The position numbers were made by a program, and so were the translations under genes. From contig JABSSW010000101.1 of assembly GCA_018902385.1 (NCBI GenBank), positions 1-29,722 on the forward strand: DNA of 29,722 nt, read 5' to 3'. Position 1 is the stretch's first letter. Every line of letters begins with the position of its first letter. This document shows, in pieces, positions 1 through 29,722 of this stretch. This DNA comes from Physcia stellaris (taxonomy: Eukaryota > Ascomycota > Lecanoromycetes > Caliciales > Physciaceae). The notes beneath the pieces were generated by a model. The model was not told where the DNA came from. It saw only the letters and a list, made by a program, of their open reading frames with translations, and ran no database searches.

Positions 1-1
1 C

Positions 2-9440: not shown

Positions 9441-10366
9441 GCTGGACAGTCACTCAATTTCCCTAATTGTGACGAAGAACGCTACAGGTGGTCAAGTATG
9501 TCTCGAATAAGTCTGATCAACGAGGAAGTTGTGGTTCATGAAGTATTGGCATGTTTAATCTGTCGAAAAGACAAGCTAAGATGATGCTCAATCTAGATGG
9601 AAAGCCATCGATGGTGAATGTGCCAGCCGTAAAAAGCAGGCTTACGATTTACAATTTGAAAGAGTCCACAATAATATCCAATTCATATAAAGGCATAAAA
9701 GAAATATACGCAACATTTTTATACTAAGATCTGGACATTTGAGGGGGGGGGGAAACTTATCGTTTGGCTTCGACAATAGCTTTAGCGCCGTTCTTGTTTC
9801 GAGGGCGAGCAAGCCTCGAGGCAGAAGCTGATGTAGATAGAAGCGATGAAATGGCGATCGTAATTTCAGTAGAGTTGGTAGAGGGCAATGCACCTGGCTA
9901 GTAAGCCTTCTAGGTCCTGGGTGAAGTATCTTGTGGAAATCATGATGAAGGGTCCGGATCAACTTGTGCGGCGAGATTGATCAGGCAACAAAGAGAGCTG
10001 CATCCAGCAAGTTCCTTGGACTAGAGAAGTTTTAGCCCACCCTGCTTGGGGAGATAGTATGGAGCTGAGAGATGTAATGAGATTGATCGATGTGCATGAA
10101 ATAGCATGCATGATCGATGGATAACCACCCCTATCAAAGGTTTGACACGAGAACAGGGTCTTGACATAGTAGCCTACTTGAATACACCAACGATGTGGCT
10201 TCAGAGATGGACGACCGAACATGTCCAATTTATTATTTTGATTGAGGTGCGGTTGAAAATTCGACTGATTTTTTTATTTAAAGTAGTTTAGCTTGACTCT
10301 CACATAACCTCTAAAGAGTGCAACCTTATTGGAGGGCAGCATTCAAGCAGGCCAATCAGGGCCTGC
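9441..10366. other. Region upstream of the ammonia-lyase, no gene recognised
   Basis: Only short frames of unconvincing composition are present (for example 9642-9962 - and 9959-10228 -). It contains a run of ten G at 9743-9752. It presumably includes the ammonia-lyase promoter next to 9441. No RNA gene or mobile element was recognised. Confidence 0.4.
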
Positions 10367-10636
10367 TTATGTAAAATCTCCCTCTGGCTTGGCATTAGTC
10401 TTCTGCAAATATCCTTTTCTCTTATCTTGAGGGTACCCCGGTACCCTGAGTAGATCCCCGAACTCACGAAAGGCGAACGCGCCTATGTTCTGTCGATATG
10501 GCACAAAGGCGAGATCACACCGTACCATGACGACGCCCACAGACAAGCTATTCCCGGACTTAGTGGTTCCCTCAAGTTTGAGCGGCCGAGGCAAGTTAAT
10601 CTCGAACCTTCTACCGAGTATTTGATTGCGGGCCAT
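10367..10636 (-). other. Unrecognised open frame, 89 codons
   Basis: An open frame with moderately protein-like composition (segments RRFEINLPRPLKLEG and FVPYRQNIGAFAFREFGDLL). A second frame on the same strand (10483-10689) overlaps it. I do not recognise a family, see no clear intron signals, and cannot exclude a chance frame or a remnant of a decayed gene. Confidence 0.2.
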
Positions 10637-11321
10637 AGATGTTTGTGTACTCCAGTACTCTCAGAGAAAAGGAACAATAATACACACACTTGAGACCACC
10701 AATTGAGGCTGTATGCGTAGAGACAAGGGGGCTGGCCATGTACTATACTCCTGGGGCTTCACGCTAAACGTAGAGTCATATCGCACATCGAAAGTGAGAC
10801 CACACAGACGAGTCATTTAACGAAGTGGTTGTGTCCAATTGCGCACCACATGGGAAAAGACCGACGAAATACTACTATTTCCTTCAGGTTCTTGTACAAT
10901 GACATCTCTGTTTACTATTCTGACAGAGGCGAGGTTTACTACCTTGTTCTAAGATCCCTTTCGTAATTCATAGGAAATTCTGATGGGTCGATCAGCTTCT
11001 TAGAAACGCTTTCCTTCCATGGCAAGAATGGGTCAAATCCGCGGGACTTACTCGGTATGATAGAGTACCAATCATTACCAGGGACTACCGGTAACGTCCT
11101 CTCTTGGTGTGAAAACTGCATATTCTCTTACAAGCTTCCGTAAACTTCTACGTTGATATCACATTCCTCTCGTGGAAAATATGCTCGCAAGCACTATTTC
11201 CGATCAGTAAATCAATCTAATTGATCTGGAAGGGTGGAACACATGCTGTCTCGCATAGCAGAGATTGTATAATAAAGACGGGCTTGAGTATCGTCTAAAT
11301 TATCAGAGTATTAACATTCAG
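10637..11321. other. Little-coding stretch
   Basis: About 690 bp with one short minus-strand frame (10939-11121, containing RGFDPFLPWKESVSKKLIDP), which looks protein-like but matches no family I know. Otherwise nothing can be supported. Confidence 0.3.
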
Positions 11322-11463
11322 GGGTCACAATGATAAGGAAATGGGTGGAGCGCTCGGAGAAGCAGTGACGGATGCAGTTGGGCCCATGTGTTTGGAGGTT
11401 GCGAAGATGTGGCAGAAGACACCGGGTGAAGAGGATATTATTGAGGCGAGGTTGAAAAGCTAA
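11322..11463 (+). pseudogene. Possible terminal exon of an unrecognised gene
   Basis: After a good acceptor (ATTAACATTCAG, ending about 11320) a frame reads through DKEMGGALGEAVTDAVG, then MCLEVAKMWQK and EDIIEARLKS, to a stop at 11461-11463. The composition is strongly protein-like and acidic-helical, but no upstream exon in a consistent frame was found. It may be the remnant 3' end of a decayed gene. The family is not recognised. Confidence 0.25.
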
Positions 11464-11799
11464 CAAGCCCGACTGCTCACTTGCTCCTACGCCGTATTAT
11501 AGTAGACCTCGCCGGATCAGAATTTTGCTTGCAAAATTGGTGAACTCGAAGATGTTTGAGAAGCTTGTGTGGGTGTCCTCTTTGAAGATCCCACTTTGAC
11601 TAAGACATGAGATTAAGGTCTGGTGCTATGGTCACAGATCGTGTGCCAGTCCTGTATTAAGCTGGATATTGGTGGATTAGTACCTGAGTCTATAGTTGGT
11701 GGTGGTATCGACTTACGCTTCTTATTCAGACCGGTTTGCAATCTTTTAGCCCCTCTCATGAAGTAGTCACCTCATACATACTCCAGGCAGCAAGACTAA
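11464..11799. other. Intergenic region, nothing recognised
   Basis: About 340 bp downstream of the MND1 stop (that gene is on the minus strand). No supported feature was found. Confidence 0.4.
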
Positions 11800-12491
11800 T
11801 TATAACTCAGCCAAACCCTCGCCTTCGACGTATTCCGCGCCGTAATACTCCCTTCTCAGTCCATCCATCCCTTCCGTATTCCCGTTCAAGAGCTTGCTCA
11901 TGTATCCTTCAATCAACATCACATTGTCCGTCCATCGTTCAGCCTTGGCCTTAATTCCTTCAACTTGCTTTATCTTCCTTTCCACATCCTCTAGATCATT
12001 GTCGGCATAGCCAGCCAGCTCCTTCCTCAAAGCCTTGACTTCTTCGGACAGAACCTCTTCCTTAGTGATCAGCATCTCCTCTCGCCTTCTTCTTCTCCAT
12101 CGGCTCTTTGCGCCCTTGCCGCTGCTACCTTCTCCTCAAGCTCGCTGACAGCTTTCGTAGCACCCTCCAACTCGGCCTTTAGTTTCGCTAGCTCAGATGT
12201 GCGAAGAGCGGTTTCTTCAGAAGCGAACGACCAGTACCAGTTGCCGCTGCCGATTTTTTCGACATGGATTTTCCATCATCGGACAGGGCTTGCAGATACT
12301 CTTTCACTTGCATGCCGTTGATCGAGGCAACAGAAGGAGGATTTTTCGAGATCCTTGAGTGTGTGCGCTGTGAGTGAATCGCGCAGGTAGGAGAGGACGA
12401 GGGCTTGTTTTGCTGATGGTGGGAGTGATTTTGGTGCCTATAATGATACAATCAGAAAGAAAGACAGGGCACATGGCCATCAACGTACCAT
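11800..12491 (-). pseudogene. MND1: MND1 meiotic recombination factor, frameshifted
   Basis: Mnd1 pairs with Hop2 as a coiled-coil heterodimer that helps Dmc1/Rad51 in meiotic strand invasion. The start ATG (12491-12489) is split off as a one-codon exon by a 51 bp intron (12488-12438, GTACGT...TTATAG), a typical arrangement. Then come APKSLPPSAKQALVLSYLR and AHTLKDLEK, the winged-helix NPPSVASINGMQVKEYLQAL with DDGK, GSGNWYWSFASEETALR, and a coiled coil (KLKAELEGATKAVSELEEKV). The C-terminal block has KALRKELAGYADND and AERWTDNVMLIEGYM, the Mnd1 signature around RWTDN. Three frame changes are needed: in the A-run after DLE, in the A-run after DDG, and just before MLITKEE (about 12076). Two of the three lie in adenine runs, which fits either decay or homopolymer sequencing errors. 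Length matches the family. Confidence 0.8.
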
Positions 12492-13095
12492 GGCTGGCAA
12501 TTAGCTACCATTGGCTTGCCTTCTCAGGAGCCTTTAGATCTGTTCAATAATGGTTTCTCGGTGGATAGATTGAGATGACAAAATCGATTTAGGGTTAAGC
12601 GAGACGAATTATTTCACGAAGCCGAGAGATTCAGGATGATACTTAAAAAGCAACTTTCCGATCACGGTTCTTTCTAGCAAGTAGTTGCGAGCTGAGCAAA
12701 TACGAATGGGAACAACGGTTTACTGAAACCATGAGATCGTCAAGGAGATAGGACTCTGTTTCTATCGCCTATTGCGCTTGTCGACAACGATAACCGACTT
12801 ACCGTATGATGATTCCATTAACCAGTTGTCTCGGAGTCTTCATGCAGGAAGCCAAAGTCACCTTGTCCGTAGGGTGACCTTTGATGAACCCTTGGCGCTG
12901 TTGGGTTATTAGAATAATTCTCTGCCCGACCAGAGTAGAATATACTAGCTTCATCGCTGGAGTACTTGTCGATCTCGGCTCTTCAGATTGGCATAGAATA
13001 AGCCATATGTCAAGTAGATAGGATAGTTACATTCCTCTCCTCAGGATGCGACTCTGTCGAGCTACGGCTAGAGGGTAATGAATTGACATGGCACG
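12492..13095. other. Intergenic region, nothing recognised
   Basis: About 600 bp between MND1 and the 3' end of the next minus-strand gene. No open frame of note, no RNA gene and no repeat were recognised. It presumably holds the MND1 promoter. Confidence 0.4.
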
Positions 13096-13781
13096 TCAAT
13101 CATTTTGGTGGGTGCCGAAGCTTCCTTTTCTTGTGTCTTCTTCTCTCTTTGATTCATTATCAGTTGATGGCTCTGCTTCCTCGGGTTCTTGAGCAGGGTC
13201 CAACAAGCCGAGCCTTTGAACGTCCGGTTCACCATCATGGTCCGAGATCTCCTCGCCTTCGACGAAGGCTAGGTCACCTGTTTCGCCAAGAATGTGTTCT
13301 GCAGCTTCTTCGAGCAAGATGCCGACAGCCAATAGTGCTGTTTCGTCCATGCTCCCAAAGCTGACATCTCCCTGAGTACCGAGGGCACTTTCGTAATACT
13401 CGGAGGCGTATATATGCACAGCTTTCAGCAAGTCAGTGTCAGGGAGTACTTGATCTTGTTTCAGATGTCTATGAGCCCAATATATATCATCCTCTTCATA
13501 TCGGACAGGTGCGCGGCGACGTCGAAACAAAACTTCATCGGGCGGGACAGGAAGAGAGCTTGATGTAGCTATGTCGCGGGTCGTAGATGTGTATGGGGCA
13601 TCAGGTATAAAGCGCTGAGTTGAGACGCGCCCTTGTATTGTCAGGTTGGTAGTCAATCGAACAGTCATGGTCCATCAAGCTCACCGGCAACTGCATCGTA
13701 GACGGTGGCGTTGCGCTTGCTAGAGCCGACAATAGTCTGGCCATTTTCGGCAAGGATCTCGCCTTCTTTGGAGGAGGACAT
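13096..13781 (-). CDS. Conserved fungal protein of unknown function, 210 residues, two exons
   Basis: Exon 1 is 13781-13685 (MSSSKEGEILAENGQTIV...). A 53 bp intron (13684-13632) has donor GTGAGC, a CTGAC branch-point motif and acceptor ACAAG. Exon 2 is 13631-13096. The 633 coding bases keep one frame. The middle has a compact conserved-looking block (VPPDEVLFRRRRAPVRYEED, then DIYWAHRHL, DTDLLKAVHIYASEYYES, SMDETALLAVGILLEEAAEH). This is followed by a disordered acidic tail rich in Glu, Asp and Pro. There is no signal peptide or membrane segment. The basic RRRR patch followed by helices suggests a nuclear adaptor, but that is inference. I recall similar hypothetical proteins in other ascomycetes but no assigned function. 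It is divergent from the ERCC8-like locus about 200 bp away. Confidence 0.75.
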
Positions 13782-13989
13782 GATGCTGTAGGTTTGCTAC
13801 AATTGTCTTTTGGTATCAATGATCCTTTGAATTGAAATAATACCTTAGTAAATCGTTTGAAAAGACCACTGCAAATGAGAAGCTCGGACTTTACGGTTTT
13901 AAGTCTTCACCTAGAAACCTCAAGCTCTTGACGAAACCTCGATCTGCAAAGTCAAACTCGCTCGTTGGAAGCACGAGCGCAACTATCTA

Positions 13990-15404
13990 ATGTATGAATT
14001 CATATCTCTTTGGGCGCGCGCTGGAGTTTGTCAGTTCCCAATCGCTGCAGCGCATATTGTGTTGGACTTCTGCATTCAATTCAACCGGCCCCGGCAATTC
14101 GATTCGATGGCAGCGATGGCCAACACCACCATAGTGGTCTCGAAGGATACTGTCTTGGCTCACAAGGCTGGCGTAAACTGCATCACCATCGACAAGTTCG
14201 AAGGAAGATAGTATGGAGCTATAGTAATCAAGTTGCAAGCTGACGTTACCAGTCTGCTTTCTGGAGGGGAGCTGAAGATCTTCAATTAGCCTATGGGACC
14301 TCGAGACCATCAGGAATGGTTCGAAGCAGTTTATCTATCATCCTATGGGTTCTGTTTGAGAGGTACCTATGTGAATCCAGTTTAAATCGTTGTCTGCGCT
14401 TATCCGTGTACAGATCCAAGTCGACTCTGCATCAATTCAGGATAATACATCTCTCCTTCTACCCTTTCGACTCCCTTGCATTCCTCTCCTCTCGTACGAC
14501 CACTCATTGAAGATTTGACAGCCAGACTCTCGGCCCTTCAGCCTCCTTCGACCCATTCCGTGGTATACTCCCATGCGCTCTCCCCTATAGCGGATCACTT
14601 GCTAGTCGCTTGCGCTACGCAGCATCCTGCGGTCAGGTTGGTGGACTTACGAACTGGTGCAGCCGCACACTCGCTATCTGGCCATCAAGGCGCGGTTCTT
14701 TCGGCGGCTTGGAGTCCGGAGCATGACCATATCACAGCTGAGTGGAGGGTCTGACGGAACTGTAAGACTTTTGGGATATTCGGCGCAGCGCAGGCTGCCT
14801 GGGTGTGCTCGATATGGAAGATTCTGTGGGAGTCTTGGGGGAGAGGATGGACTTGGAACGAAAGCACGACCACTGGGACAGGGTAAAGCGCACGTCGGAA
14901 CTTGCAATGGCGTGGTCTGGACTGGACGGAAAGCACCTTGTTACTACCGGTCACGATGAACGAGTGAGGGTATGGCATACTGATAGTGGCGCAAATGCTC
15001 TATCTCATTTTGGTCCAATCATCAAGAACACAAACTTCATCCACTCTTCTTCCTCTGATCGCGCCCGGATATGCCTCCTTCCTGGAGGTCATATCATGTT
15101 CTACCCCAATGAGAAAGAAATCTTAACTTTGATCTTTTCGAAGGAACACTGCTCAAGCGGCTCCGAGACCCCAACGCTGCCTATTCCCATGGTAGTGGCA
15201 GTGCTGGACAGCGAAATGTACGATAGAATAACCTCATTGGCCTGGAGAGCCGCTGGTGATGTTGAGATGTACTCTGCCCATTCCGATGGGGTCATCCGAG
15301 CGTGGAAGCCTCGAACAGCAGAAGAGGTTGAAGCCGATAATGAGGAGGCGGAAGGGGCGCACAGGAAGAGAGTGAGAGTAGAAGAGGAAAAGAGAAGCGC
15401 TTAA
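13990..15404 (+). pseudogene. ERCC8/CSA-like WD40 protein (Rad28 family), decayed
   Basis: The family comprises WD40 substrate receptors of CUL4-DDB1 ligases acting in transcription-coupled repair. The N-terminal part falls in two frames: ARAGVCQFPIAAAH at 13990 onward, then LLHSIQPAPAIRF, then AHKAGVNCITIDKFEGR. LWDLETIRNGSK follows near 14290, and IIHLSFYPFDSLAFLSS near 14440-14493. At about 14510 SYDHSLKI is followed by TGA where the repeat expects Trp (TGG to TGA). The next block is VVYSHALSPIADHLLVACAT with HPAVRLVDLRTGAAAHSL. Frame changes near 14740 and 14770 lead to LSGGSDGTVRL and WDIRRSAGCLGVLDMEDS. The 3' frame 14805-15404 holds VTTGHDERVRVWHTDSGA, LLPGGHIMFYPNEKEIL and DRITSLAWRAAGDVEMYSAH, and ends in an acidic/basic tail. 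The WD40 repeat order is that of CSA, but at least four lesions block translation. Confidence 0.75.
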
Positions 15405-15488
15405 TGACGTCTTCCGAGTTTGACAAAACAGAAGATCACGTTCACTTAGGCATCTTTGGCGGAAAAAACTCCATTCACATGATCTGCT

Positions 15489-16603
15489 CTATTCGCAGCA
15501 AGCCTTCGCAGGAACCAGCTTCTGCTTCAATCTGGCCTCAGACTCGATTCGATTCTTCCACTTCCGAGCCTCGCCTCTGGCCAGGATTATGGTCATCCGC
15601 AAGATGGGTAAATGCGTTTCAGACTCTCGAGTTGCACCGTTGAGCCATTCACATAGGAAAGAGAGGCCGTTCCCATTGGCGTGAAGTTCCATCGTCCGAA
15701 GGCCCAGTTGAGTATATAGTCAGCAGTCGTCTGTCCCTGACGCACCATCGCCGCCTCAGCGTTTTCCTCCAGAGGAGGCTGGGGGACGAGAAGCCGCAAC
15801 AATTGCTTTGATACGGTAAATCTCATCCTTTGGAGCGGACAACAGGAAAGTCTCTAGCGTTTCAAGGTTTACTGCTGACGTTTTGCCTCCTTTAGATGAC
15901 AGCGTGACGGAGAGTACCTCCACTTCGCTCTGGTGATCGGCCTTGTGTTCATGGCTATGCGCTTCTTGTACATCAAGTGGTGCCTGCAAAGTTATGTCTT
16001 TCGCCAAGGTGCTGTCGAGGCCCAGTAGGAGACTCATATCAACACGCCCACGATCAGACTTAACATTAGCAATCTGAAGCTCGAGGTCTCAACACGATCC
16101 AAGCAGTCTTCGTATCTCCTCATCAACATGCTCCACTTGTTGAAAACAATCAGGTCTGTGTACCTGGCTTGCATTTTAGCTGTATAGCTCGTATCCTCAT
16201 ATCCCCTTCCAATTCTCCACATCAATAACAACAATCACACCGTCGAGCGAATAACAACCTGTCTCCCTCCCAGTCTATTAACCTCCATAGCCAAAGTCGC
16301 CGGAAAAGCACTTCCGCTGGTCTCAATGATGATGCGAGCTGGCTTGACATCGTTGCGGAGCGTCTCAAGGGCATCTCCAAGCTGACCAACGAGGTTGCAG
16401 CAGATACAACCGTTCAGGAGCTCTTTGACACCAGAGATTGATGACGAGGAAGCAAGCTGGGAGTCGATAGCTACATCACCGAACTCGTTCTTCAGAAGAG
16501 CGAGTCGGTAGTCCTTGGGCAGTTGCGGTATCAAATTCAGTATCAATGTGGTTTTACCTGAACCCAGAAAGCCTGTGATTATGGTGATTGGTATTGAAGT
16601 CAT
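15489..16603 (-). pseudogene. CobW/G3E-family zinc-metallochaperone-like GTPase, frameshifted
   Basis: G3E GTPases of this type hand metal, often zinc, to client enzymes. From the start at 16603 the frame shows the Walker A loop TIITGFLGSGKTTLILNL, an ALLKNEFGDVAID switch, the metal-binding CxCC motif in NGCICCNLVGQLGDALETLR, and IIIETSGSAFPATLAMEV. The frame is lost near 16245. After it come DGVIVVIDVENWKG, then DTSYTAKMQARYTDLIVFNKW (the base-recognition NKxD-like position reads NKW), then SDRGRVDMSLLLGLDS. A His-rich stretch EAHSHEHKADHQ follows, typical of the family, then LETFLLSAPKDEIYRIKAIV. After another shift come DYILNWAFGRWNFTP and the C-terminal MTIILARGEARKWKNRIES ending at 15489. 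At least four frame changes are needed. It is convergent with the ERCC8-like locus, 84 bp apart. Confidence 0.8.
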
Positions 16604-16900
16604 TTTCTCAGTAAATTGATTCTCAGCGGTTTCGATTTCTGAATTTGCTCGGTATTTTTTTCTCGCTATTTCATAATTCAGATCTTCATTTTGTTTTTGT
16701 CGAGCTTAATCTGTCGAGCAATACAGATAGAATTTACGAGCACAATGAAGTTTAGTCTCAGTTGGCTCTCAGCTTCTCACGCTTATTCCGATATTCCTTT
16801 GCCCGCTGACTCTGCAGCCAGTTCTGGGGTTAGGGTTCTATAATTTTTAGTGCGCGGGAAGCAAAAGCTTGGCATTATTCTGATCAATAGAATCGCTGAA
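16604..16900. other. Transition from gene-rich to hypermutated DNA
   Basis: About 300 bp upstream of the G3E start. CpT, CpC, ApG and GpG still occur normally here (for example CAGTTGGCTCTCAGCTTCTC around 16760), so the region is not hypermutated although it is fairly AT-rich. A single GGGTTAGGGTT occurs near 16830 and does not form an array. No gene was recognised. Confidence 0.5.
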
Positions 16901-19002
16901 TTTCTTGTTTTCGAATTGATTTATTAACGTACATCGATTCGAAAATTTCAAAAATCGCATTTTTGATTTTCTAGATTTTCGCATTTTTTCGTTTTCGTTT
17001 TGTCGGACATTTCATGAAGCTTTTTTCAACGTGAAATCGATATTGCAAATCGTCGTTTCGCATTTTGTTTTATTAAAACTGATTTGAAAAAAGACGAAAA
17101 AATTCGTTTGATTTTTTATCGTTGAATTTATTTCGATGTTTTCGTTTCGAAGTGACATTTTCATTTTGCTTGCAAAGTTCATGATACTTTTTTCTCGTTT
17201 ATTTTTTTTTGATATGATGATTAAATTTTTTAAACATTTTTTTCGTGTGCGTGATCATGTAATCGAACGTGTAAAAAAAAAAAATGTTTTTTCAAAAAAA
17301 CAAATGAATTTCGTCGATTGACAGAATTTTCGAACAATTTGATTGCAATTGTGCGTTGAAAATCGAAATGAATCGTAATGATTTTCGAATTCAAAGTTTG
17401 TAAAATAAATAGAAATTGACTACAGAAATCATTAAAAAATTGATTAAATTGATTTTAAATCAAAATTTTCGATTTCTAATGACAATAAAAAAATAAATCG
17501 TTTTCGTTTGTGCATTGTTGTCGATATGTCGTTAAATGTGTTTGTTGTATTGTCGTATAAATTTTGAAAAAAAAAAATTCGAAATATATATTTTTCGATG
17601 AAATATTCTTTCGTTTTATCGGATTTTTGTAAAATTTATCGTCGAAATCTTGAAAAATATGAATCGTAATGAAATATTGAATCGTGAAATTGTTCTGAAA
17701 AACAACACAAAGCGTTTGATTTTTGTGATCGACGTTTGCGTTGATTTTTTAAAATTTGTTGTTGTAAATATTAACGTATTTCAATCAATTTTTTCGTAAA
17801 AATGTTTCGAAATTTGACAACGATGTTGAATAATCGTTTCGAGCTTGAATCGTATCGATTATATCGTGATCGCGTTGTTTGATTCGATGATCAATTTGAC
17901 GCTGTTGAAAAAATTGTTCAAAATCAAAATGTAATTTTCGACGTTTGATGAAAAATATTTTCGATTAATTGAGTATCGCGCGAGCAAAATCGAAAAATTG
18001 ATTTTTTTGAATCGAAATATGTTTAATTCTTGATTGATTTTCAAATTTGCAACGTCAAATTTCTTGAAAATGTAAAAAAGTTGACAAATAACTATCGTCT
18101 GTTATATTATAATATTTGTGATTTTTTATCGATTTTTTCACATTGACTTCAAAATGTGTACATTACGAATTTTCGCATGTTGACGTTTCGTCGACAACAA
18201 ATCAATTAGACGAAATTGATATTTCAAATTAGCGAAACAGAAATCGCTGTAAAAAAATCGAATTTTCGATATCGTTGAAATTTTGTCGTCGATATAAATC
18301 GTTTTGAATTGTTGATTTTTCAAATAACGTTTAATATTTTCGAATCGATTAACATAGCGTTTTGACGATTTAATATGGACAAATTGATCGTTATGAAAAT
18401 TTGATACGTTTAAACGGCGTTTTACAGTCGCAAAAATTCATAATTAACAAAAACTTGTCGATAAAAACGCCAGCGTTTCTGTTTTTCGTTGACGTTTTCA
18501 AATCGTTGAATTTGATTTTCATTTAATTTTTGAATTTTCGTTTCACGTCGAAAAGTGCATTGCGATTTGTATGTTTGATTAACAACTCGATGTTGATCAT
18601 GTTGAAATAAAAATTGAACAATTAAAACAAAAATCGTCTCGTATAGTTTCGGACACGAAATCAAATTTAACGAATTTTTTTTTGCAATTTGCAATAATGT
18701 ATAATCGTTTGAAAAAAAGAATAAATCGTGCAAAATTTGACGCAAAATTTTTTCGAATCGATTTTTTTCAGATTTTTTTATTGAATTTTCGAATTTCGAA
18801 AAATTTATTGCTTTTTTTCAGAAATTTCGCGTTCGTCAATTTCATTTAATCAAATATGTTAATTACATTATGATTACAAAATCGTCGAAATATGCAAAGA
18901 ATAAGCGAAATATAATGTATATAAAATGTAATGTGCAAAAATATCGAAATGAAAAATGTCAGAAAAAATCAAAAAAACAAACAAACAGTTTCATTTACAT
19001 GT
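16901..19002 (-). mobile_element. Unidentified degenerate element, heavily hypermutated
   Basis: This AT-rich stretch left of gypsy copy A is not repeated in copy B. Minus-strand frames at 18422-18745, 18138-18323 and 17859-18044 run in one direction and look like pieces of one protein. Examples are SCPKLYETIFVLIVQFLFQH, KSQCTFRRETKIQKLN and RRFRFY-like KRWRFYRQVFVNYEFLRL; further along, IYIDDKISTISKIRFFYSD and FSILLARYSINRKYFSSNV. I do not recognise a reverse transcriptase, integrase or transposase motif. It could be another repeat family or flanking sequence that was itself duplicated. The strand is inferred from the longer frames only. Confidence 0.4.
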
Positions 19003-19430
19003 GTCGAGAACAATGTGTGAAAGAATGTAAAAAACTTGATTGTTAATTTTTCAGAAAAAAGTTTCGAAATATATATTGTAAATTATGTGACAAATGATTT
19101 GTTTTGACGACAAGCGCGTTTTATTTCAGATTTATTAGTACGCAAGGTGACAATCGAAGTGAAGAGCGAACAGATTTTCAAAAACATATGTAAAAATTTG
19201 ATTTTTTAGTCGACAAGCTAGTTTGCAAATTTTAACAATTTGTTTTCGATGTACGTTAAAAAATAAACGACAAATCGTTTCTGACAAATTGGTGTTTCGA
19301 AATTTCTAACAATTTGTTTTGATTAAAATAAACGATATCGTTTCAAACAATATTCGTGTTGATATTTTTAATTTTTTTTTAATTATTGAAGTCGATGAAA
19401 TCGTCGTATCAAAATATCAATTGCAACGAT
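19003..19430 (-). repeat. LTR-like terminal sequence of copy A (3' LTR)
   Basis: It begins TGTCGAGAACAATGTGTGAA and matches 25424 onward (TGTCAAGAACAATGTGTGAA), including AAAAAACTTGATTGTTAATTTT and AAGTTTCGAAATATATATTGTAA. Similarity between the two copies stops abruptly to the left of this word in both places, as expected for a shared element terminus. The inner edge of the LTR is estimated from where pol-like coding starts. Confidence 0.5.
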
Positions 19431-20035
19431 TCATGACGTGATTGAAAATGTGATCAATTCGATTGTGATTGACTTTCGAAACAAAACAAATGATTCGATG
19501 TCAAAAATTAACGAAAATGTCGTGTTCGATTTACGTGAAATAACAATTGCGAATCGTTGATTTGTTGATGATTGATTGACAAACGTCAACGTCGATATTG
19601 TGAAAATTTTTTTAATGATGAAATAACGACGAAAAACTTTGACGAAATGACAATTTTGATTGACGAAATTATAAAAAAAATTTGCAAACAATTTGACAAA
19701 AAAATCGTAAAACGTAAAACGTTTTCGTAATTTTGTACAAAATTTTAAACGTTGTCGACTTTTAATAAATTTCGTCATTTATCGTATTATGATTTTCAAT
19801 TGTTTCATTTGACAAAATATTAATCGTCACGACGTTTGATTTGACGTTTGTTGATAAATTTTTCAATTTTTCGTATTTTAATTCGATTCGTGTTTTTTGT
19901 TACGAAAACAAAATTTGATTGATTTGAACGCGAACGATTGAAAAAATCGTTCATTGATAAAAAAAAACAAATTTTAATTGAATTATAATAAAACAAAATG
20001 TATACGTCAATGATTCGAAAATTTCAATCGATATG
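19431..20035 (-). pseudogene. Gypsy pol C-terminal tail, copy A
   Basis: A frame at 19431-19778 (RQRLKFCTKLRKRFTFYDFF; VNQSSTNQRFAIVISRKSNT; ITIELITFSITS) and the sequence up to 20035 follow the integrase C-terminus. The equivalent stretch in copy B carries an IEKFINKRQ motif that resembles the start of a chromodomain in chromovirus-type integrases. In this family a basic, Ser/Thr-rich tail normally ends pol. Only position and faint motifs support this. Confidence 0.4.
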
Positions 20036-21197
20036 TCAAATTGTCAATTTTTTCAAATTTTTTGAAAAAATCGATATATTGTTGATTGAATTTTTTATCG
20101 AAATTTCAATTGTCGATATGTTGTAATCATGATGCAATTTAATCAATACATAATCGTCAATTTTCATGAACAAAAATTGATGTTTGCAATCAATAATAAT
20201 ATTTGTTGTCGTTTGAACGAATGCAATAACGTCGATCATTTCAAAACGAACACGAATAATTGCATTGAAAAAAGTTTTTACGAATGATTTTCGATTGTCA
20301 ATTGCGAAAAATTTTTTCAAATCGTCGATGAAATCAAATGTAACGAATTGACGAAACATGTTCAAGAATTGCAACGAAATGAATTCGTAAAACGTTCGTT
20401 GATGTTTTGTGAATAATGACAAAATGAAAATTGTTGAAATGACGTTGCAATTTGATCGATATTTTAAAATCATTCAATTGAATTTTTTAAAACGTTTGTA
20501 ATGAATAAAATCGAAAAACAATTTGATTATTTGATTAATTCGCTCGAATTGATCGTCGATCTGAAAATAATATGCAATTGAATAAAGCAAACGAATTTCG
20601 AATTGTTTGAAAATTGTTGTTCGCATATCAAACGAGAAATTTGCGATCTCGATTCGAAATTATGATTTTCGATATATTTTGATCAACAGCATTTAATTTG
20701 TCGATTAACGCGATTTTTTTCAACGACAAATCGAATAGTTTTTGTCGACAATGAATATGAATCGTTTCGTGAATTTGCAGATGACAAATATCGTGATATT
20801 CAATTCGTGCGAAAAACAAATAAAGTCAAAATGAAATTAATGATGATTGTATGAAATGAAATCGACGAAATTAATATAAATTGTAACGATAAATACGATG
20901 CGTGTTTTTGATTTAATATATTTAACATTTCGAACAATGTTTCAAATAGTTACGCAAATAACGAAACAAATCGCGAATATAATATGAAACGAACATTTTT
21001 TCCATAAAACATTTGACATAATTCGCATGTTCGTCGTCATGAATTAATCGCAAAATGTTTGATACTGACGAAATGAAAAATGCAAAATCGACGAAATTCG
21101 TAAACATGATTATTAATGATAAAATCGTCTTCGAACGAAAAATCAAATCGTTTTTTTTTTTATAAAAAAAATAGTTTTGCAACGTTTTCGTCGTCAA
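20036..21197 (-). pseudogene. Integrase domain, gypsy copy A
   Basis: From 21197 downward: the HHCC zinc finger (LRLIHDDEHANYVKCF, then YYIRDLFRYLRNYLKHCSKC), the catalytic core with KIIISNRDRKFLV at about 20628-20650, and the C-terminal stretch TKHQRTFYEF, FVQTTTNIIIDCKHQFLFMK and DDYVLIKLHHDYNI (20036-20473). Family members have SDRDRKF at the second catalytic Asp, and here it reads SNRDRKF. GAT to AAT after a G is the GpG to GpA change expected from the local mutation pattern. The zinc ligands survive. The core is interrupted, so the enzyme is inactive. Confidence 0.7.
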
Positions 21198-21344
21198 CGT
21201 TCATATTTGATTGATTTTTTGTCAATTCAAATCAATTTTGTCATCATCGAATATTCGATTGCGAAAATTTTTTATTTCGATTAATGAAATTGTGAACAAA
21301 GCATCAAGTTCGTTTTCGTCAAAATTTTTGATGCGTTGACGCGT

Positions 21345-22010
21345 TGATATTATCGTTGATTAAACGTGACAAAACATCAAAAACAATGTGTTGTTTGTTT
21401 GATTTATGTCGAATATCGAAATTGAAACGTTGAATGTAATTTGAAACACGAACAAAACGTAAATTGAATTTGTCGATTGAAATTGTTATCGTCGTGATTT
21501 GATTAACAATGTCGAATGCAAATTCATGATCAATATAAACGATTGTTTTGTTTGACGAAATTTGACAATATGTTTTGTTTTTGAATATTCACACAATGTT
21601 TGTTATTTTCAATTCAATCGATCGATATTTTGTTTCGACGTCGATAAATAATCGATTAAAAAAAAATATCGATTTTATAACATGACGAAAAAATATTTTG
21701 TTTGATTCGAAAAAAAAATTTTGACATAATATAGCATGACATCGAATTCGAATTTTTTGTTAGCATTTAAATCAATAAATAATTGACGTTTGAAATTCGA
21801 ATGAATTAAATAAAAAATTTTGTCAAAACGATTTGCAAAATATCGAATGAAATCAATTTTTTGCTGTAAAATGTTGTACGCGTGTTTTCGAAAAATAAAC
21901 GCGTTTAACGTTTTTGCAATAAATTCGTTACGCAAAAATTTCGTTTTTTTGTTTTGTAATGATTTGAAAATGTCAACATAATGAACAATGTAATCGCAAT
22001 CGGTCAATCA
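21345..22010 (-). pseudogene. RT connection and RNase H domain, gypsy copy A
   Basis: A TGA at 22010-22008 stands where the family has Trp before LTDCDYIVHYVDIFKSLQNK and KTKFLRNEF. LIHSNFKRQLFIDLNANK follows (the first RNase H Asp region), then TIVYIDHEFAFDIVNQITT, LRFVRVSNYIQRFNFDIRHK and HIVFDVLSRL at about 21361-21378. These match the YTDH...VRHKPG...PDALSR pattern of gypsy RNase H. One more TGA replaces Trp before IFKN. Most catalytic acidic residues look retained, but frames are broken. Confidence 0.7.
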
Positions 22011-22141
22011 AGTGAAAATACGTTTCGAATTGTCGAAAAATGCGAAAAAATCGAAATTTGACAATTGTTTTGAGTTTTTTTTCGAACGTGATTAAATCGA
22101 ATGAATCAATTTTTGATCGAAAAGTGAAATTGATAAATAAT

Positions 22142-23321
22142 TCAAAAGATTTTGATAAATTTGATCGAAATGTTGTTTTTGTTTAACATTGAAAATATTT
22201 TGCGCAAATGAATTTCGTGTTCGATTTTGTACGAGAAAATATCGTTATATCGTTCACGTAAGTTTTGACAAAATGACGATATTCGCGAAACAATCGTCAA
22301 TTTGACGTTGCACGTACGTCGATGAATTTTGTAATTAAGCGGCAATCGCGTTGAAATTTTTTGATTTTTGTGATTGACAACAATAAATTTATGTCGATCG
22401 TTTAAATGAATTCGTCGTTGATAAAAAAAAATCAATAATCAATGATTGATATGTAATCGCAATTTCGCATTACGATTATGATATTTGTTTGCAATGATAA
22501 CGAATATGCGTCAAATTGTGTTATGACATTGAGATTTTTGATGTTTATAATTACACGATTTTTTTTCTCGTCGTCAACGTTTTTTCAAACGCAAAAACAA
22601 AAATAAAAAAATGACGTTGATTGATTAATTCAAAACATTCGATCAATGCGATGCAAATCGTCGAAAATTTTGTCAATCAATTTTCTGTTTTTTGCATTCA
22701 AAAAATACATTTTTATTTTTTTTGATACACGTTTTTCTCAGTCACTTTTCAATGATATTTTCATTCAATTTTTTTTCGACATTTTAACAAAATCGATATT
22801 TTGTCAAAGCGTCGAAAATTTTTCAACAATTTTGACGAATGAATTTAATTCGTCGAAATTGTAAACGATAACGTCGTTAAACAAAACGATTTCGATCAAC
22901 GAAATAGAAACGTTTGTAAAAAATTTCTCGAAATCGTTATCATCGATTTTGATTGTGAAAATTTTTCGCAATTCAACAATTGACATCGAAACTTGTGACA
23001 AAATGATTACAGACGATATTGATGCTTGTGACAAGATGATTAACGACGATAAAATAGCAAACGTAATCGAAAAATTGTTATCGATTGTAATAACGACGAC
23101 GTAAATCACGACACAAACGAAAATGAATTTTTTGAATCAATTATTTTTGTGAATGAATTTTGATTTTTTGACGACGAAATATTTGACATTTTCGTCGTCG
23201 ATATCGATATGAAAATGCGTTGAAAATCAATTTCAAATATTTTGTTTAATCGAAAATTTCTAGAAATCATGGTGAAAATTTTTATCGTTGCGTACAATAA
23301 TAAATTTAATAAACACGTCAA
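22142..23321 (-). pseudogene. Reverse transcriptase and upstream pol, gypsy copy A
   Basis: The 5' pol part at 22804-23321 contains IVLFNDVIVYNFDELNSFV and KIVEKFSTL. It continues through 22646-22804 with KKNWMKISLKSDWEKRV, then NRKLIDKIFDDLHRIDRMF, the linker typically found before RT. The RT frame gives RRIHLNDRHKFIVVNHKNQ, then FVKTYVNDITIFSRTK at about 22250, and HLRKIFSMLNKNNISIKFIK at 22142. The active-site YVDD reads YVND (GTG AAC GAT). GAC to AAC after G is a GpG to GpA change. A frameshift follows SRTK. RT is dead. Confidence 0.75.
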
Positions 23322-25423
23322 CGAAATGCCGCATACAAAATGAAATTGAAATTGTCATTCGATTCAAACAAAAAATTTTTTGTAATCGACAATTGACATG
23401 ATGAACGACGACGATTATCTCGACATGTGACGAAATAATTGTAATTTTTTGAAATGAACAAATTGTTGAATCGTCAATTTGAAAAAACGTATTTTCAACG
23501 ATATGATTATGTGGATATTGCTCCGATTATTGCATGTCTTTTGATAAATGTCAATAACGAAATTTTCGAATTCAAGTGATGTCATTGTTTAAAAACATAT
23601 CGATTTTCAAATTGTCAACGAAACGAATTTCACGTTTGAATAACGACGTGATTTTTGATTATTTTTGATGTCAAACATATGAATATCACATATGGCATAT
23701 TTTCAGTTTTCATGTCGATTAATGTTTAAATCACGAATTTGAAATGACGAAATCGCTGATACGAATGAAAATATTGAATGTTGTGTTTTGAAAAAATTTC
23801 GATTCGCCGTGAAACGTTAACATCGACGCTCAAACACACGTTTTTGACACGACGATTACGACAAGCGCGATTTTGACTTTGACGTAATTTCAATCACGAA
23901 ATTCGTATTCGATGTCAATATTTGTTGACGAATCGACGTTAAAACGAATAATGATTAATCAAACGAAATAAATGAATTCGTAAATTCAACAGACGTGATT
24001 GTGTCAACTGATTAAATTCGTTGATTTTTTTTTTTGTAACATCGATTGCAAACGAATTGAAATTGAAATTTTTGATCGAATATGTTTTGACGTCGTTAAA
24101 AAATTTCGATTTTTTGAGAAAATCAAATTACAGTCATCCCACGAAAACGATTTGATGTAATTCGTTATTAGACGCGAAAACTTTTTTACATCGACGACAA
24201 TGAAATAACGACGATTTGATCATTTATTATCGACGCAATGAAATTGACGAAAATTTCATTTTTGATTCGAATTGTAATAATTCAAATTTTCGTTTTCAAT
24301 ATAGTAATTTTCACGCTTTTCATTAGAAAAGTTTTTTGCAAATGAGTTGTGAAAGTTTTTCGCAAATTTTTTTTTTTTTTCGTTGTTATTTTTGATCGAC
24401 AACAAAAATTTTAATTTTGTCAAAACGATCAAAAATTCGTTTCGATTATTTTGTTTGTGTCGTTTGTTAATCGACGACGATTGATTTCGAATTTGAAATT
24501 TGACGCGTTTTCAAAAATCAATTGCAAAATTTTTTGTCAATTGACAAACGCAAAAACGATAAATGTTTTTTGAAATGCGCTTGAAAATTTTATTGAAATT
24601 TTGATATTTTTGATAAACATTATTTTGAAACGTCGAATTTTGATATTTATTAATTGTAATTTGATGAAATCAATATTCATACGAAAAATAAAAAAAAAAT
24701 TGAAAATCGTCAACGTCAAATTGTTATCAAAATCGTTTTGTCGTTCACGATTTTGATTTATTTTTGATTTAACGTTGTTTATCGATTTGAAAAAACTAAA
24801 ATTGATTCAAATGTGAATAAATTTTTTAACAATCATTTTTGTCAAATACGTTTTTGACGTCAAAATGTCGAAAAACGAAATAAAAATGATAATCGTGATT
24901 GAACATAAAAAAAATTGCGATTTTGAAATTAAAATTCAAATTATTTCGTTGTAATTAATTGATTGTAATTGTCAATTCGACGATTTTAAAATACGTATAT
25001 ATTTTGATGAACGTAAATTTTAAACGTTTTATCATCGAACATTTCGCATAATGTATTTTTCAATTTGCAAATTTTTGAAAGTTTGTAATCAGCGTTTGAA
25101 TCGACGAATCAAATCACGACAAATTTTTATTTAAATCGAAACATATTTTTTCAATTTCATTTAATTTCAATTTATTCGTTGAAAATATTATCGCGTAAAC
25201 ATTCGACAATGAAATAAATTGCATTAATTCAAAACGAATTTTTTTTTTTTTAAATTTGTCAACTTAAAAACAAATACATTTTGTAATAAATATGTCGATC
25301 AACGTTGACAATGACATTTTTGTTCTTGTCATTTAACGACGAAAATCAAAGAAATCAATATTTTTTGACAGTTTTCAGAATTGATTTTTCGTCATATTGA
25401 TCAATCGTCGATTTCATTCGAAA
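23322..25423 (-). pseudogene. Presumed gag/protease region of copy A
   Basis: It lies between the 5' LTR-like sequence and pol, where gag and protease belong. Only short frames are open (for example 24537-24719, -, with FFFIFRMNIDFIKLQLINIK). A zinc knuckle or DTG/DSG protease motif was looked for and not found, perhaps because Gly and Pro codons are heavily mutated. The assignment rests on position. Confidence 0.4.
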
Positions 25424-25790
25424 TGTCAAGAACAATGTGTGAAAAGATGTAAAAAACTTGATTGTTAATTTTACGAAAAAGTTTCGAAATATATATTGTA
25501 ATGTTATGATAACATATAATTTGTTTTTCAACGACAAACACGTTTTTATTTCAAATTTCGTTATTGACAATCGTTAAACAAATTTTCGTCTCATAATCGA
25601 CAAATTTTTAACAATCTGTTTCAATCAAAATAGACGACATCGTCTCGATGTCAACAATGTTTTTAGTCATATCAAAGCGTTATTCGATATTTCTAATTTT
25701 TCTTTTTTAATTTTGAAGTCGATGAAAACGACGCATCAAAGTATCAATTACGAGCGTCGACGACGTGATTGAAATCAACGAAATGAAAAA
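25424..25790 (-). repeat. LTR-like sequence between copies B and A
   Basis: It starts TGTCAAGAACAATGTGTGAA and matches 19003-19430. By position it is the 3' LTR of copy B and could also be the 5' LTR of copy A, as in tandem elements formed by LTR-LTR exchange. Within it, TGTAATGTTATGATAACATA is partly palindromic. The inner boundary is approximate. Confidence 0.45.
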
Positions 25791-26141
25791 ACGTGATCGA
25801 TTCGACGATGATTGATTTTCGAGTCAGAACAAACGTTTCGATTCAAAAATTATCGTCGTTGTCGTGTTCGATTTGCGTGAAATGACAATCGCGAATCGTT
25901 GATTTGTTGAAAATTGATTGACAAACGTCGACGTCGAACTAATTACGAAAAATTTTTAATCAATGAAATGACGACGAAAATTTAAAATCGAAAAATTTGA
26001 ACGAAATGATAGTTTTGATCAACGAAATGATTTAAAATTTTTGCAAACGATTTGACAAAAAAATCGTAACACGTAAAACGTTTTCGTAATTTTGTACAAA
26101 ATTTGAGAGCGTCGTTGAATTCAAATAAATTTCGTCATTCA

Positions 26142-27355
26142 TCATATTGTGATTTTCAATTTTTTATTTGACAAAATATTCATCGTCACGACGTTGATTT
26201 GACGTTTGTTGATAAATTTTTCAATTTTTTCATAATTTGATTCGATTCGTGTCTTTTTCAACGAAAACAAAAATTTGATTGATTTGAACGCGAACGATTG
26301 AAAAAATCGTTCATTGATGAAAAAACAAATTTCAATTGAATTATGAATAAAACAAAATGTATACGTCAATGATTCGAAAATTTCAATCGATATGTCAGAT
26401 TGTCAATTTTTTTTCAAAAATTTTGAAAAATCGATATATTGTTGATTGACTTTTTATCGAAAATTTCAGTTGTCGATATGTTGTAATCATGATGCAATTT
26501 AATCAATGATAATCGTCATTTTCATGAACAAAAATTGATGCTTGTGATCATAATAATATTTGTTGATCATTTTTAAACAAATGCAATGACGTCAATCATT
26601 CAAAACGAACACGAATAATTGCGCTGAAAAAAAAATTTTTGTGAAAAATTTTCGATTGTCAGTTGCGAAAAATTTTTCAAATCGTCAATGAAATCAAATG
26701 TAACGAATTGACGCAACATGTTCAAAAATTGCAAAAAAATAAATTCGTAAAACGTTTTATTGAATGTTTTGTGAATAATGACAAAATGAAAATTGTTAAA
26801 ATGACGTTGCAATTTGAACAATATTTTAAATCATTCAATTGAATTTTTCATTGTAATCAAATAAAATCGAAAAACAATTTCAATCATTTGATTAATTCGT
26901 TCGAATTGATCGTCAATTTGAAAATGATATGCAATTGAATAAAATAAACGAATTTCGAATTTTTTGAAAATTGCTGTTCACATATCAAACAAAAATTTGC
27001 GATTTCGATTCGAAATTATGATTTTCGATATATTTCAATCAACAATATTTAGTTTGTCGATTAACGCGATTTTTCATTCAACGACAAATCAAGTTTTTTT
27101 GTCGACAACGAGTGTGAATCGTTTCGTGAATTTGCAAATGACAAACATCGCGATATTCAATTCGTCATCGAAAACAAATAAAATCAAAATGAAATCAATG
27201 ATGATTGTATGAAATGAAATCGATGAAATTAATATGAATTGTAACGAATCATACGATGCGTGTTTTCTGATTTGATACGTTTGACATTTCGAACAATGTT
27301 TCAAATAATCACGCAAATAACGAAACAAATCGCGAATATAATATGAAACGAACAT
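26142..27355 (-). pseudogene. Integrase region, gypsy copy B
   Basis: From 27355: FVSYYIRDLFRYLRDYLKHC, then CQTYQIRKHASYDSLQFILI, then SFHTIIIDFILILFVFDDEL with the first catalytic Asp kept, and CKFTKRFTLVVDKKT (to 27089). Near 27005-27040 the second catalytic site reads IISNRNRKFL in place of SDRDRKF. The C-terminal stretch is at 26600-26821 (KTFYEFIFLQFLNMLRQFV). ESNYEKIEKFINKRQ, faintly chromodomain-like, lies at 26142-26369. Frames are broken between these pieces. Confidence 0.65.
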
Positions 27356-27719
27356 TTTTTCGAAATTTTTGCATAATCGACATGTTCATCGTCAGCGCAT
27401 CAATCGTAAAATGCTCCGATACAACGAAATGAAAAATGCAAAAAACGAAACTCGTAAACATAATTATCAATGATAAAATCATTTGAACGAAAAATCAAAT
27501 CATTTTTTTATAAAAAAATAATTTTGCGACGTTTTCGTCGTCAACGTTTAATATTTGACTGATTTTGTCAATTCAAATCAATTTTTGTAATCATCGAATA
27601 TTCGATTGCGAAAATTTTTTCATTTCGATTAATTAAATTGCGAACAAAAACATCAAATTCATTTTTATCAGAATTTTGATCATTGACGCGTTAATATTAT
27701 GGGTGACAGCGTGACAAAA

Positions 27720-28643
27720 CGTCAAAAACGATGTGTTGTTTGTTTGATTTATGTCGAATATCGAAATTGAAACGCTGAATGTAATTTGAAACACGAACAA
27801 AACGTAAATTGAATTTGTCGATCGAAATTGTTTATCGTTGTTTGATTAATAATGTCGAACGCAAATTGATGATCAATATAAACGATTGTTTTGTTTGACG
27901 AAATTTCGACAATATGTTTTGTTTTTTTTGAATATTCACACAATGTTTGTATTTTCAATTCAATCGAATCAATATTTTGTTTCGACATCGATGAATAATC
28001 GATTAAAAAAATATCGATTTTATAACATGACGAATGAAAAAGTATTTGTTTGATTCGAAAAATTTTTTTTGACATAATATATACATGACATCGAAATCGA
28101 ATTTTTTGATGGCATTCAAATCAATGAATAATTAACGTTTGAAATTTGAATGTATTAAATAAAAAAATTTTGTCAAAACGATTTGCAAAAGCGTCAGACG
28201 AGAAATCAAATTTTTTGTCGTAAAATGTTGTACGCGTGTTTTCGAAAAATAAACGCGTTTAACATTTTGCAATAAATTCGTTACGCAAAAATTTTGTTTT
28301 TATTTTGTAATGATTTGAAAATGTCAACATAATGAACGATGTAATCGTAATCAATCAATCAAATCAATACGTTTCGAATTGTCGAAAAGTACGAGAAAAT
28401 CGAAATTTGACAATTGTTTTGAATTTTTTCGAACGTGATTAAATCGAATGAATCAATTTTTTGATCGAAAAATGAAATTGATGAATAATTCAAAAAAATT
28501 TTGATAAATTTGATCGAAATGTTGTTTTTGTTTAACATTGAAAATATTTTGCGCAAATGAATTTCGTGTTCGATTTTTGTACGAAAGAATATTATTATAT
28601 CGTTCACATAAATTTTGACAAAATGACGATATTCGCGAAACAA
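27720..28643 (-). pseudogene. RT (3' part) and RNase H, gypsy copy B
   Basis: The frame 28359-28643 reads MFREYRHFVKIYVNDIIIFF, then HEIHLRKIFSMLNKNNISIK and FFDQKIDSFDLITFEKIQNN. This is the RT palm end, with YVND in place of YVDD, as in copy A. The frame at 27749-28075 holds SSNKTIVYIDHQFAFDIINQ, the RNase H YxDH block. The end of RNase H runs to about 27715. All is degenerate. Confidence 0.7.
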
Positions 28644-28815
28644 TCGATCAATTTGACGTTGCGCGTACGTCGATGAATTTTGTAATTAATGACGATCACG
28701 TTGAAATTTTTTTGATTTTGTGATTGACAACAATAAATTTGTGTCGATCCTTGAATAACTCGTTATTGATAAAAAAAATTGAACAATCAATGATTGATAT
28801 GTGATACGAACACAG

Positions 28816-28879
28816 ATAATTGTTTGATGATTCTTAGTTCGCGCTAAATAATTGCTTGATGATTGCTAACTCGCGCTAA
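28816..28879. repeat. Tandem duplication of a 32 bp unit (2 copies, 27/32 identical)
   Basis: Unit 1 is 28816-28847 and unit 2 is 28848-28879, with no spacer. Both begin ATAATTG and end TCGCGCTAA. The five differences are at unit positions 8, 18, 19, 22 and 23. It sits just outside the truncated end of copy B. Its role is unknown. Confidence 0.8.
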
Positions 28880-29652
28880 ACTGACTAGCTGTACTTAAAG
28901 AAATTTTTCTACTTTGCTTGATCAATTCACTACACTTTCATTGATATCGGTTTTGTAACTGACTATTCTAGCAAATGATAACATCATCGATTCGATTTGT
29001 ATTACGTATTTGACATCATTGATTGCCGATCGAATACGTCGTTCTACATCAGATCGAACTTGTCGACAGTCAAACGCATTGTTTCAGCAATTTCATCAGT
29101 TTAATCAACTCTAAATCGCCGAAACTTAATTGCCGTGAAAATCAATTTACTCGTGAATTCGACACGTCATTCGCAATCGAATGAATTGACAGAACAGCTC
29201 GAATCATAGCGTGCGCGTTTATCAATTTCAATATCTCGTTGTCGAAAAGTTTGAGACAAACGAAATCTTCGTCGCATCGACTTTACAAAACAACTTAAAC
29301 GACAAAGTTGTTTTTCAAAGTCTTTCGCAAATTTCAATTCAGACAATTTCATCGACAATTTCGTTCTCAAATCAGCAATCGATTTTTATCTAATCTGCGA
29401 CTTTTCATTTTGTCAGTCTTTTCGAATTTGCTAAGTGACGAATCACGTCAAACGAATTTGTCGTTCGAATATTTTTATCTTAACGTCTGCTTCTTTTAGC
29501 GTCTGTTTTTTCGAGAAGTTTCGCCATTTGTTTCAGACAGTTTCTCGCTCATTTTGTTTATCTATTCTTGCTATTTTCATTTCATTGCATTTTGCTGTCA
29601 TCGTTTGTCGCAATATTTGTTCTAGCTGACAAATCATTGTAATATATCAGCT

Positions 29653-29667
29653 TGTCATTACATGACA
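29653..29667. repeat. Short palindrome TGTCAT-TAC-ATGACA, possibly LTR-like
   Basis: A perfect 6 bp inverted repeat with a 3 bp spacer. On the reverse strand, nearby ACTTGATTGT (about 29,687) followed by TGTCATGTAATGACAAGC and ATGATTTGT occurs in the same order as in the LTR-like sequences of copies A and B. This suggests a less mutated, oppositely oriented LTR relative. The matches are short and the sequence AT-rich, so this is weak. Confidence 0.25.
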
Positions 29668-29722
29668 GACATTTTTAGCTAGACAATCAAGTTGACTTCG
29701 TTTGATATTTCGATTTCGCGTA

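Follow-up and report, generated by a model that had tools for sequence, protein, structure and literature searches.

In the lichen-forming fungus Physcia stellaris (Lecanoromycetes, Caliciales; genome of 43.97 Mb in 147 contigs), the right-hand part of contig C101 (JABSSW010000101.1) has lost nearly all cytosines that precede a pyrimidine (CpY). The whole contig, 29,722 nucleotides, is referred to below as the window. Judging from its base patterns, the tract is probably transposon DNA that was struck by a genome-defense process resembling repeat-induced point mutation (RIP) and targeting cytosine before a pyrimidine, CpC more than CpT, with a leak of approximately 10% at CpA and CpG. An earlier note, made from the letters alone, had placed a RIP-like hypermutation at 16900–28800, with CpT and CpC as targets, CpA and CpG spared, and the change driven nearly to completion. 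Published work is cited here from the portions of each paper that were available to us.

The counts given in that note for positions 20041–20400 were reproduced exactly: the 44 cytosines comprise 23 in CpA and 21 in CpG, with none in CpT or CpC, and the complementary ApG and GpG number two and zero. These values lay outside all of 2000 base shuffles of the stretch, in which CpY averaged 21.3 (minimum, 11) against 0 observed, and purine-guanine pairs (RpG) averaged 26.7 (minimum, 16) against 2 observed. Across 16900–28800, CpY accounted for 87 of 1435 cytosines and RpG for 136 of 1750 guanines; the gene-rich flank (1–16500), which serves as an internal control, had normal dinucleotides, as the note had stated (CpY, 2109 of 4047 cytosines; RpG, 2134 of 4103 guanines). 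In half-kb windows from 17001 to 28500, the observed/expected ratios were 0–0.28 for CpC, 0–0.33 for CpT, 0.66–1.50 for CpA, 2.56–4.30 for CpG and 0.30–0.53 for TpA. The CpG ratio was 2.4–4.3 across 17001–29500, so that the CpG loss that marks methylated-CpG decay, or a process like methylation induced premeiotically, was not seen. The loss of CpY was nearly complete overall, but not absolutely strict, because about 6% CpY and 8% RpG were left in the tract, approximately nine-tenths of them CpT or ApG in the half-kb counts. The left edge lies near 16860–16920. The right limit of 28800 did not hold, since CpC and GpG remained near zero up to 29722, with CpT less depleted past 28800. In 28806–29722, CpC and GpG were nearly gone and CpT was partly kept (plus-strand observed/expected ratios of 0.76 and 0.62 in 28501–29500), and this segment may show the process caught earlier in its course, consistent with CpC being lost before CpT.

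The direction of change was determined using a copy that had escaped it. L077, a reverse-transcriptase stretch on contig C12 (60101–61100; RVT_1, E 2.3e-38; open frame of 1151 aa), has a GC content of 0.50 and normal dinucleotides, with CpC and CpT observed/expected ratios of 0.89 and 1.21; the concern that less mutated relatives might themselves be CpY-poor was thus not borne out. When L077 was compared with its mutated relative in locus L011 (908 aligned columns, 71% identity), C-to-T change affected 95 of 98 CpC, 111 of 126 CpT, 11 of 109 CpA and 10 of 106 CpG sites. Transitions from C:G to T:A dominated, as RIP requires: 228 of the 246 substitutions were C>T or G>A and 18 were others, with T>C at 6 of 442 sites. 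The L011 relative had lost 206 of 224 CpY (92%) but 21 of 215 cytosines before a purine (CpR), and other change amounted to 2%, which argues for hypermutation rather than slow decay. These data support CpY as the target, with the qualification that CpC was struck harder than CpT (97% versus 88%), and show CpA and CpG to be largely, but not wholly, spared. A preference of the CpR leak for a 5′ T (14 of 85 TpCpR sites in this pair) was absent in a larger set. Because L077 had no blastn match to the window, it belongs to another family, and the polarity result bears on the genome at large, not on the family found in the window.

A genome search with L077, in which 40 of 176 candidates were scored, listed 40 matches: L077 itself, one on contig C5 at 96%, and 38 at 73–84%, for which identity values alone were taken and the bases were not read. 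Identity to L077 was predicted to be 73.9% after full CpY conversion, 87.9% after conversion of CpA alone, 76.3% after conversion of CpA and CpG, and 50.2% after conversion of all cytosines. The C12 stretch and its C5 counterpart (1166310–1167309) have open frames of 1151 and 1024 aa, and of these two only the C12 copy was read; their likeness and long frames, beside the 38 less similar relatives, suggest that the element was probably active recently. No relatives of L077 turned up when viral contigs were scanned.

Within the window's own family, context was measured among its copies. In 14 chosen copies, the C/(C+T) fraction was 0.002–0.005 before C and 0.09–0.13 before T (0.002 in CCT), and, where the 5′ base was not C, 0.50–0.65 before A and 0.48–0.55 before G; in the flank and five host loci it was 0.41–0.68 in every context. 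When 15 copies were aligned jointly, gaps stretched about 3000 bases over 3880 columns, and the rates from that alignment were set aside in favor of pairwise BLAST alignments; 55 of 105 pairs were kept, the other 50 falling short of 1000 aligned bases. Among C-bearing sites, the proportion with a C/T difference was 0.971 before C, 0.823 before T, 0.105 before A and 0.098 before G, where the class before C comprises only 70 pair-sites and sites recur between pairs, making them non-independent. Change at CpA or CpG is therefore not as frequent as at CpY, in agreement with the earlier note. The 5′ base had no visible effect at CpT (0.80–0.83). One distant relative of the family, L024 (68%), is an intermediate copy, with C fractions of 0.00–0.12 before C, 0.09–0.37 before T, 0.17–0.67 before A and 0.24–0.60 before G, and these part-way values suggest that CpC seems to go before CpT. 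Alignments of L024 with distant relatives, of which 6 of 13 were alignable enough, pointed in the same direction, although identities of 65–70% were too noisy for rates.

The depletion extends well beyond the window, and was found by dinucleotide counts both in the tract and in a genome-wide sample. A DNA search with 19000–22000, in which 40 of 158 candidates were scored, gave a listing of 56 matches, 18 of which, excluding the query and including the window's second copy, had 72–91% identity over at least 959 query bases. All 30 loci examined (L005–L034) carried the signature to some degree, most weakly L024. Twenty 2-kb pieces, their round-number positions fixed beforehand, were drawn from 16 of the larger contigs and gave 80 half-kb windows, 22 of which were CpC-depleted; because small contigs lay outside the sample, this proportion gives only a rough idea of how much of the genome is affected. 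GC content was below 0.36 in 23 windows, with CpC and GpG together making up less than 3% of C/G in 22 and 3.8% in the remaining one, and none of the other 57, of normal GC content, fell below 10%, indicating that normal DNA is spared. A search for the transposase domain DDE_3 gave 23 matches; among the 15 fetched, the matched part lacked CpC and GpG in 11 and was normal in 4. Depletion thus occurs in several repeat families, including transposase-domain loci, and has left no trace in at least one copy (L077). The loci assigned to families are repeated DNA; the depleted sample windows were scored by composition. Another locus, L055, which is AT-rich and had near-normal ratios at first view, turned out to be half depleted and half normal.

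The process also leaves a distinct mark on reading frames. By the codon table, TGG is the sole codon that a CpY change turns straight into a stop (TGA), and a CpA change creates TAA or TAG. Of 527 RVT_1 candidates, 150 matches were scored, and these contained 250 TGA, 33 TAA and 3 TAG stops, with 10 matches free of stops, and the 23 DDE_3 matches contained 47 TGA, 6 TAA and 2 TAG. Six open reading frames (ORFs) of at least 180 codons in mutated DNA lack Pro, Gly and Trp. In the L077/L011 pair (294 codons), Pro was kept at 0 of 14 and Gly at 0 of 11 positions, Gln at 9 of 10 and His at 6 of 7, and both Trp codons became stops; in this one pair, the effect of mutation on proteins is altered, in that Gln and His mostly stay and Pro and Gly vanish.

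The marks of canonical RIP at CpA were not observed, since CpA was a minor target (11 of 109, against 95 of 98 for CpC and 111 of 126 for CpT) and TpA was low, and the statement of the earlier note that classical RIP does not fit is upheld. TpA/ApT was 0.42 in the tract and 0.71 in the flank, and the index (CpA+TpG)/(ApC+GpT) was 1.31 in the tract. With thresholds of TpA/ApT ≥ 0.89 and (CpA+TpG)/(ApC+GpT) ≤ 1.03, these classical indices flagged none of 59 200-base windows of the tract and none of the 23 depleted sample windows, and 3 of the 57 normal windows passed. Because little TpA is made and the stops are mostly TGA, standard RIP screens miss the process.

We propose that duplicated DNA would be recognized during the sexual cycle, as in RIP, that a cytosine methyltransferase of the RID/Masc1 class would act on cytosines with a 3′ pyrimidine, and that methylation or direct deamination would then give T. 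A PF00145 profile search gave four matches at three loci, so that, of the enzyme types named in the earlier note, two RID/Masc1-class genes and one DIM-2-like gene are present. L040 is DIM-2-like, with a sub-threshold BAH match and the motif ENV, and the two RID/Masc1-class genes, L041 (C5) and L039 (C6), have EQT and EET, respectively, at motif VI. EQT, which we take to be a mark of RID, occurred in 105 of 120 closer database hits (EET in 9), and EET, presumably a mark of Masc1/DmtA, in 61 of 83 more distant hits, including two named DmtA proteins (EQT in 11). In a tree of 31 catalytic regions, with 5 of 28 inner branches unresolved and a very long DIM-2 branch, L041 grouped with proteins of Lecanoromycetes, and L039 joined a distinct group of 8 (support 87/87) that includes Heterodermia and stands away from the Eurotiomycete sequences. 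By sequence, the closest proteins of solved structure were DNMT1 and bacterial methylases, and none of them bears the name RID. One of the two RID-class enzymes is the most likely seat of the changed specificity. We tentatively extend this, at somewhat less than even confidence, to a RIP of Physcia, and perhaps of other Physciaceae, with inverted 3′ specificity (CpY, not CpA), borne by one RID-class methyltransferase, possibly the EET paralog, and missed by standard screens. Heterodermia aff. obscurata had one EQT and one EET gene among the listed matches (P0008, P0128).

The alternative that survives best, although we regard it as unlikely, is that, with no RIP involved, a DIM-2-like enzyme methylates CpY in heterochromatin and the resulting 5-methylcytosine slowly deaminates. 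A DIM-2-like gene is present (L040), Neurospora DIM-2 is stated to prefer CpT in a 2026 review (PMC13297926), and in Zymoseptoria, C-to-T change during mitosis is increased by Dim2 (PMC8016269). In view of that CpT preference, the argument in the earlier note that methylation decay would remove CpG was too simple, although the retention of CpG itself stands. However, conversion of 92% of CpY against 2% other change would be far faster than ordinary decay, and the division of half-kb sample windows into two classes, together with an untouched copy beside saturated ones, also favors hypermutation. CpC is more completely lost than CpT here, which does not match a CpT preference, and Zymoseptoria Dim2 methylates CG, then CA and CC, with almost no CT, and its mutations are mainly at CA (PMC8016269). 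A structural study in which DIM2 acted in vitro on CG as well as non-CG DNA left its sequence preference open (PMC11315935).

That an APOBEC-like deaminase edited retrotransposon cDNA is highly improbable. Editing of the APOBEC3G type favors CC, and the APOBEC context is set by the 5′ base on one retroelement strand; here the 3′ base decides, the 5′ base is without effect at CpT, both strands are struck, and transposase-domain loci are affected too. A PF08210 search was empty, which is uninformative because its control was silent as well. An artefact of assembly, sequencing or contamination has very little to recommend it: C101 does resemble a redundant haplotig, but the signature occurs on many large contigs and in 22 of the 80 sampled windows, and the DNA came from axenic cultures grown from ascospores and was read by both Nanopore and Illumina sequencing (PMC7513301). 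Natural codon or base composition is the least likely of all, because, AT-rich as the elements are, composition would hardly cut C before C to 0.002–0.005 while C before A or G stays at host level, the untouched copy has a GC content of 0.50 and normal dinucleotides, and in-frame stops with loss of Pro, Gly and Trp show decay.

Several observations weigh against a RIP-like process aimed at CpY. The polarized result comes from a single pair, and in that pair CpA and CpG were not wholly spared: roughly 10% of these sites had changed by C>T, compared with T>C at 6 of 442. One of its three stop-creating changes was CAG to TAA, which a CpY change does not explain. The identity fit of the 38 L077 relatives is not decisive alone, as conversion of CpA and CpG would yield 76.3%. 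Strand-coordinated residual sites were considered as a mark of single RIP events, but the remaining CpT and ApG showed no more strand coordination than those of host windows did (dispersion, 1.53 in mutated versus 2.55 in host windows). In Rhizoctonia solani, for which the authors use the term CpG-biased hypermutation, CpC is nevertheless the densest CpN class of single-nucleotide polymorphisms in a table (PMC4014442), so that abundant CpC change is not necessarily a sign of RIP. Finally, the unmutated gene part of the window matches contig C28, and partly contig C118, at 90–96%, which would count against RIP if it were a true duplication.

This last point depends on how the three contigs are related. 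C101 is colinear with C28 (window 1–29722 versus about 291000–320750) at the five places tested (window 1500–4300, 15500–17700, 17502–23484, 24191–29722 and 28700–29722), with offsets of 290,985–291,076 and 90–97% identity. C118:1–8983 matches window 8803–17700 at 93–96%, followed by 75.6% over 17494–23299. These alignments suggest that C101, C28 and C118 are probably alternative haplotypes in the culture (haplotigs), with segmental duplication as the alternative. As alleles, C101 and C28 would not trigger RIP; as true duplicates, their unmutated genes would argue against it. The C/T differences at CpG between such sequences were lopsided, with 43 C>T against 8 T>C for L006 versus window 17502–23484, and 33 C>T against 18 T>C for L008 versus window 24191–29722, perhaps reflecting later CpG decay on one haplotype.

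The CpY-directed, RIP-like process shares several features with canonical RIP at CpA: C-to-T change on both strands in repeats, saturation, sparing of genes, and the presence of RID-class and DIM-2-like genes. It differs in that CpA, the canonical target, is spared in Physcia; in a duplicated region of Zymoseptoria, 240 of 242 mutations were at CpA and 2 at CpT (PMC10294615), and a kingdom-wide survey of 2025 concludes that CpA is preferred (PMC12543289). CpT is a target, sometimes the leading one, in Botrytis, Sclerotinia, Magnaporthe, Neurospora Tad1 and other ascomycetes, but in the Botrytis and Magnaporthe type it is accompanied by CpA, whereas in Physcia CpC is strongest and CpA and CpG are spared. 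CpA, CpT and CpG signatures have been reported, with CpT predominant in two genomes (PMC4352252), and CpT>TpT and ApG>ApA were the dominant forms in alignment analyses (PMC7882544); the term CpC does not occur in the available text of either paper. RIPCAL lists CpC>TpC as a possible class and reports CpT over CpA in Neurospora Tad1, and in short rDNA repeats of S. nodorum CpT change was found whose RIP origin the authors doubt (PMC2621366); CpT change is also raised in Neurospora rDNA (PMC5555474). The hypermutation in Microbotryum and Rhizoctonia is likewise a RIP-like C-to-T change with a preferred 3′ neighbor (PMC4352252, PMC4014442), but there the named target is CpG, which is kept in Physcia, and in Rhizoctonia the change reaches genes on a wide scale. 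Among lichen fungi, Cladonia rangiformis, in which RIP is described, resembles the present case in its strong two-class GC content and its RID and DIM-2 homologs, but its repeats peak at about 16% GC, and Physcia repeat loci are mostly at 22–33%; the main text available for that study contains none of the terms CpA, CpT, CpC or dinucleotide (PMC12542154). Neither RIP nor repeat-induced occurs in the available text of the Physcia genome paper (PMC7513301). A CpC-led process that spares CpA and CpG was not found in the available literature, though earlier subscription papers may hold one. The earlier note's statement that no RIP variant this strict is known therefore stands for a CpC-led, CpA-sparing case, although CpT-biased RIP is already in print.

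The features of the window are collected in Table 1. The minus coding strand of the first core copy was taken from surviving ORFs, and its right end reflects the extent of the fetched loci, no boundary having been seen. Positions 19300–22457 match 25602–28805 at 86.4%, and the homology of the two copies stops at 28805 (22457 in copy 1). The longest listed ORF of copy 1 had no Pfam match at E ≤ 0.01, and we take it to be integrase-end-like. A protein search with this mutated ORF gave 8 database relatives, 5 of them with PF24626; by eye, Pro is present in none, a single Gly in one and a single Trp in one, and the CpY signature thus seems to be present in other deposited contigs too. The gene flank also contains an aromatic amino acid lyase (PF00221, E 2.5e-75) resembling phenylalanine ammonia-lyase at 8201–9118 (minus strand).

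Table 1. Features of the 29,722-nucleotide window.
Feature	Coordinates	Strand	Remarks
Tract hypermutated at CpY (hardly any CpC/GpG, strong loss of CpT/ApG, CpA and CpG retained)	16900..29722		From dinucleotide counts; goes to contig end
Stretch singled out in the earlier note	20041..20400		44 C, 0 before a pyrimidine
Dispersed element, repeated core, copy 1	19002..23484	-	Homologous copies on other contigs
Repeated core, copy 2	25424..28805	-	About 6.3 kb right of copy 1
Longest listed ORF of copy 1, 145 aa	20036..20473	-	Without P, G or W
Further repeat DNA	28806..29722		CpC/GpG near zero, CpT partly kept; less advanced state
Gene-rich flank	1..16500		Normal dinucleotides; internal control
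CobW-type GTPase gene exon (PF02492)	16235..16603	-	Pfam-matching ORF nearest the tract; not CpY-depleted

Surveys based on TpA would be expected to score the Physcia genome as nearly RIP-free, despite the CpC depletion of 22 of 80 sampled windows. In the portions of the literature available, the leading target of RIP-like mutation is CpA, CpA together with CpT, or CpG, and Physcia suggests that the 3′ specificity can be reversed. It would offer a natural variant for finding the residues that set 3′ specificity, and it separates RIP-like change from CpG methylation decay. If the proposed reading is true, RIP may be more widespread among fungi, and take more forms, than surveys have recorded.

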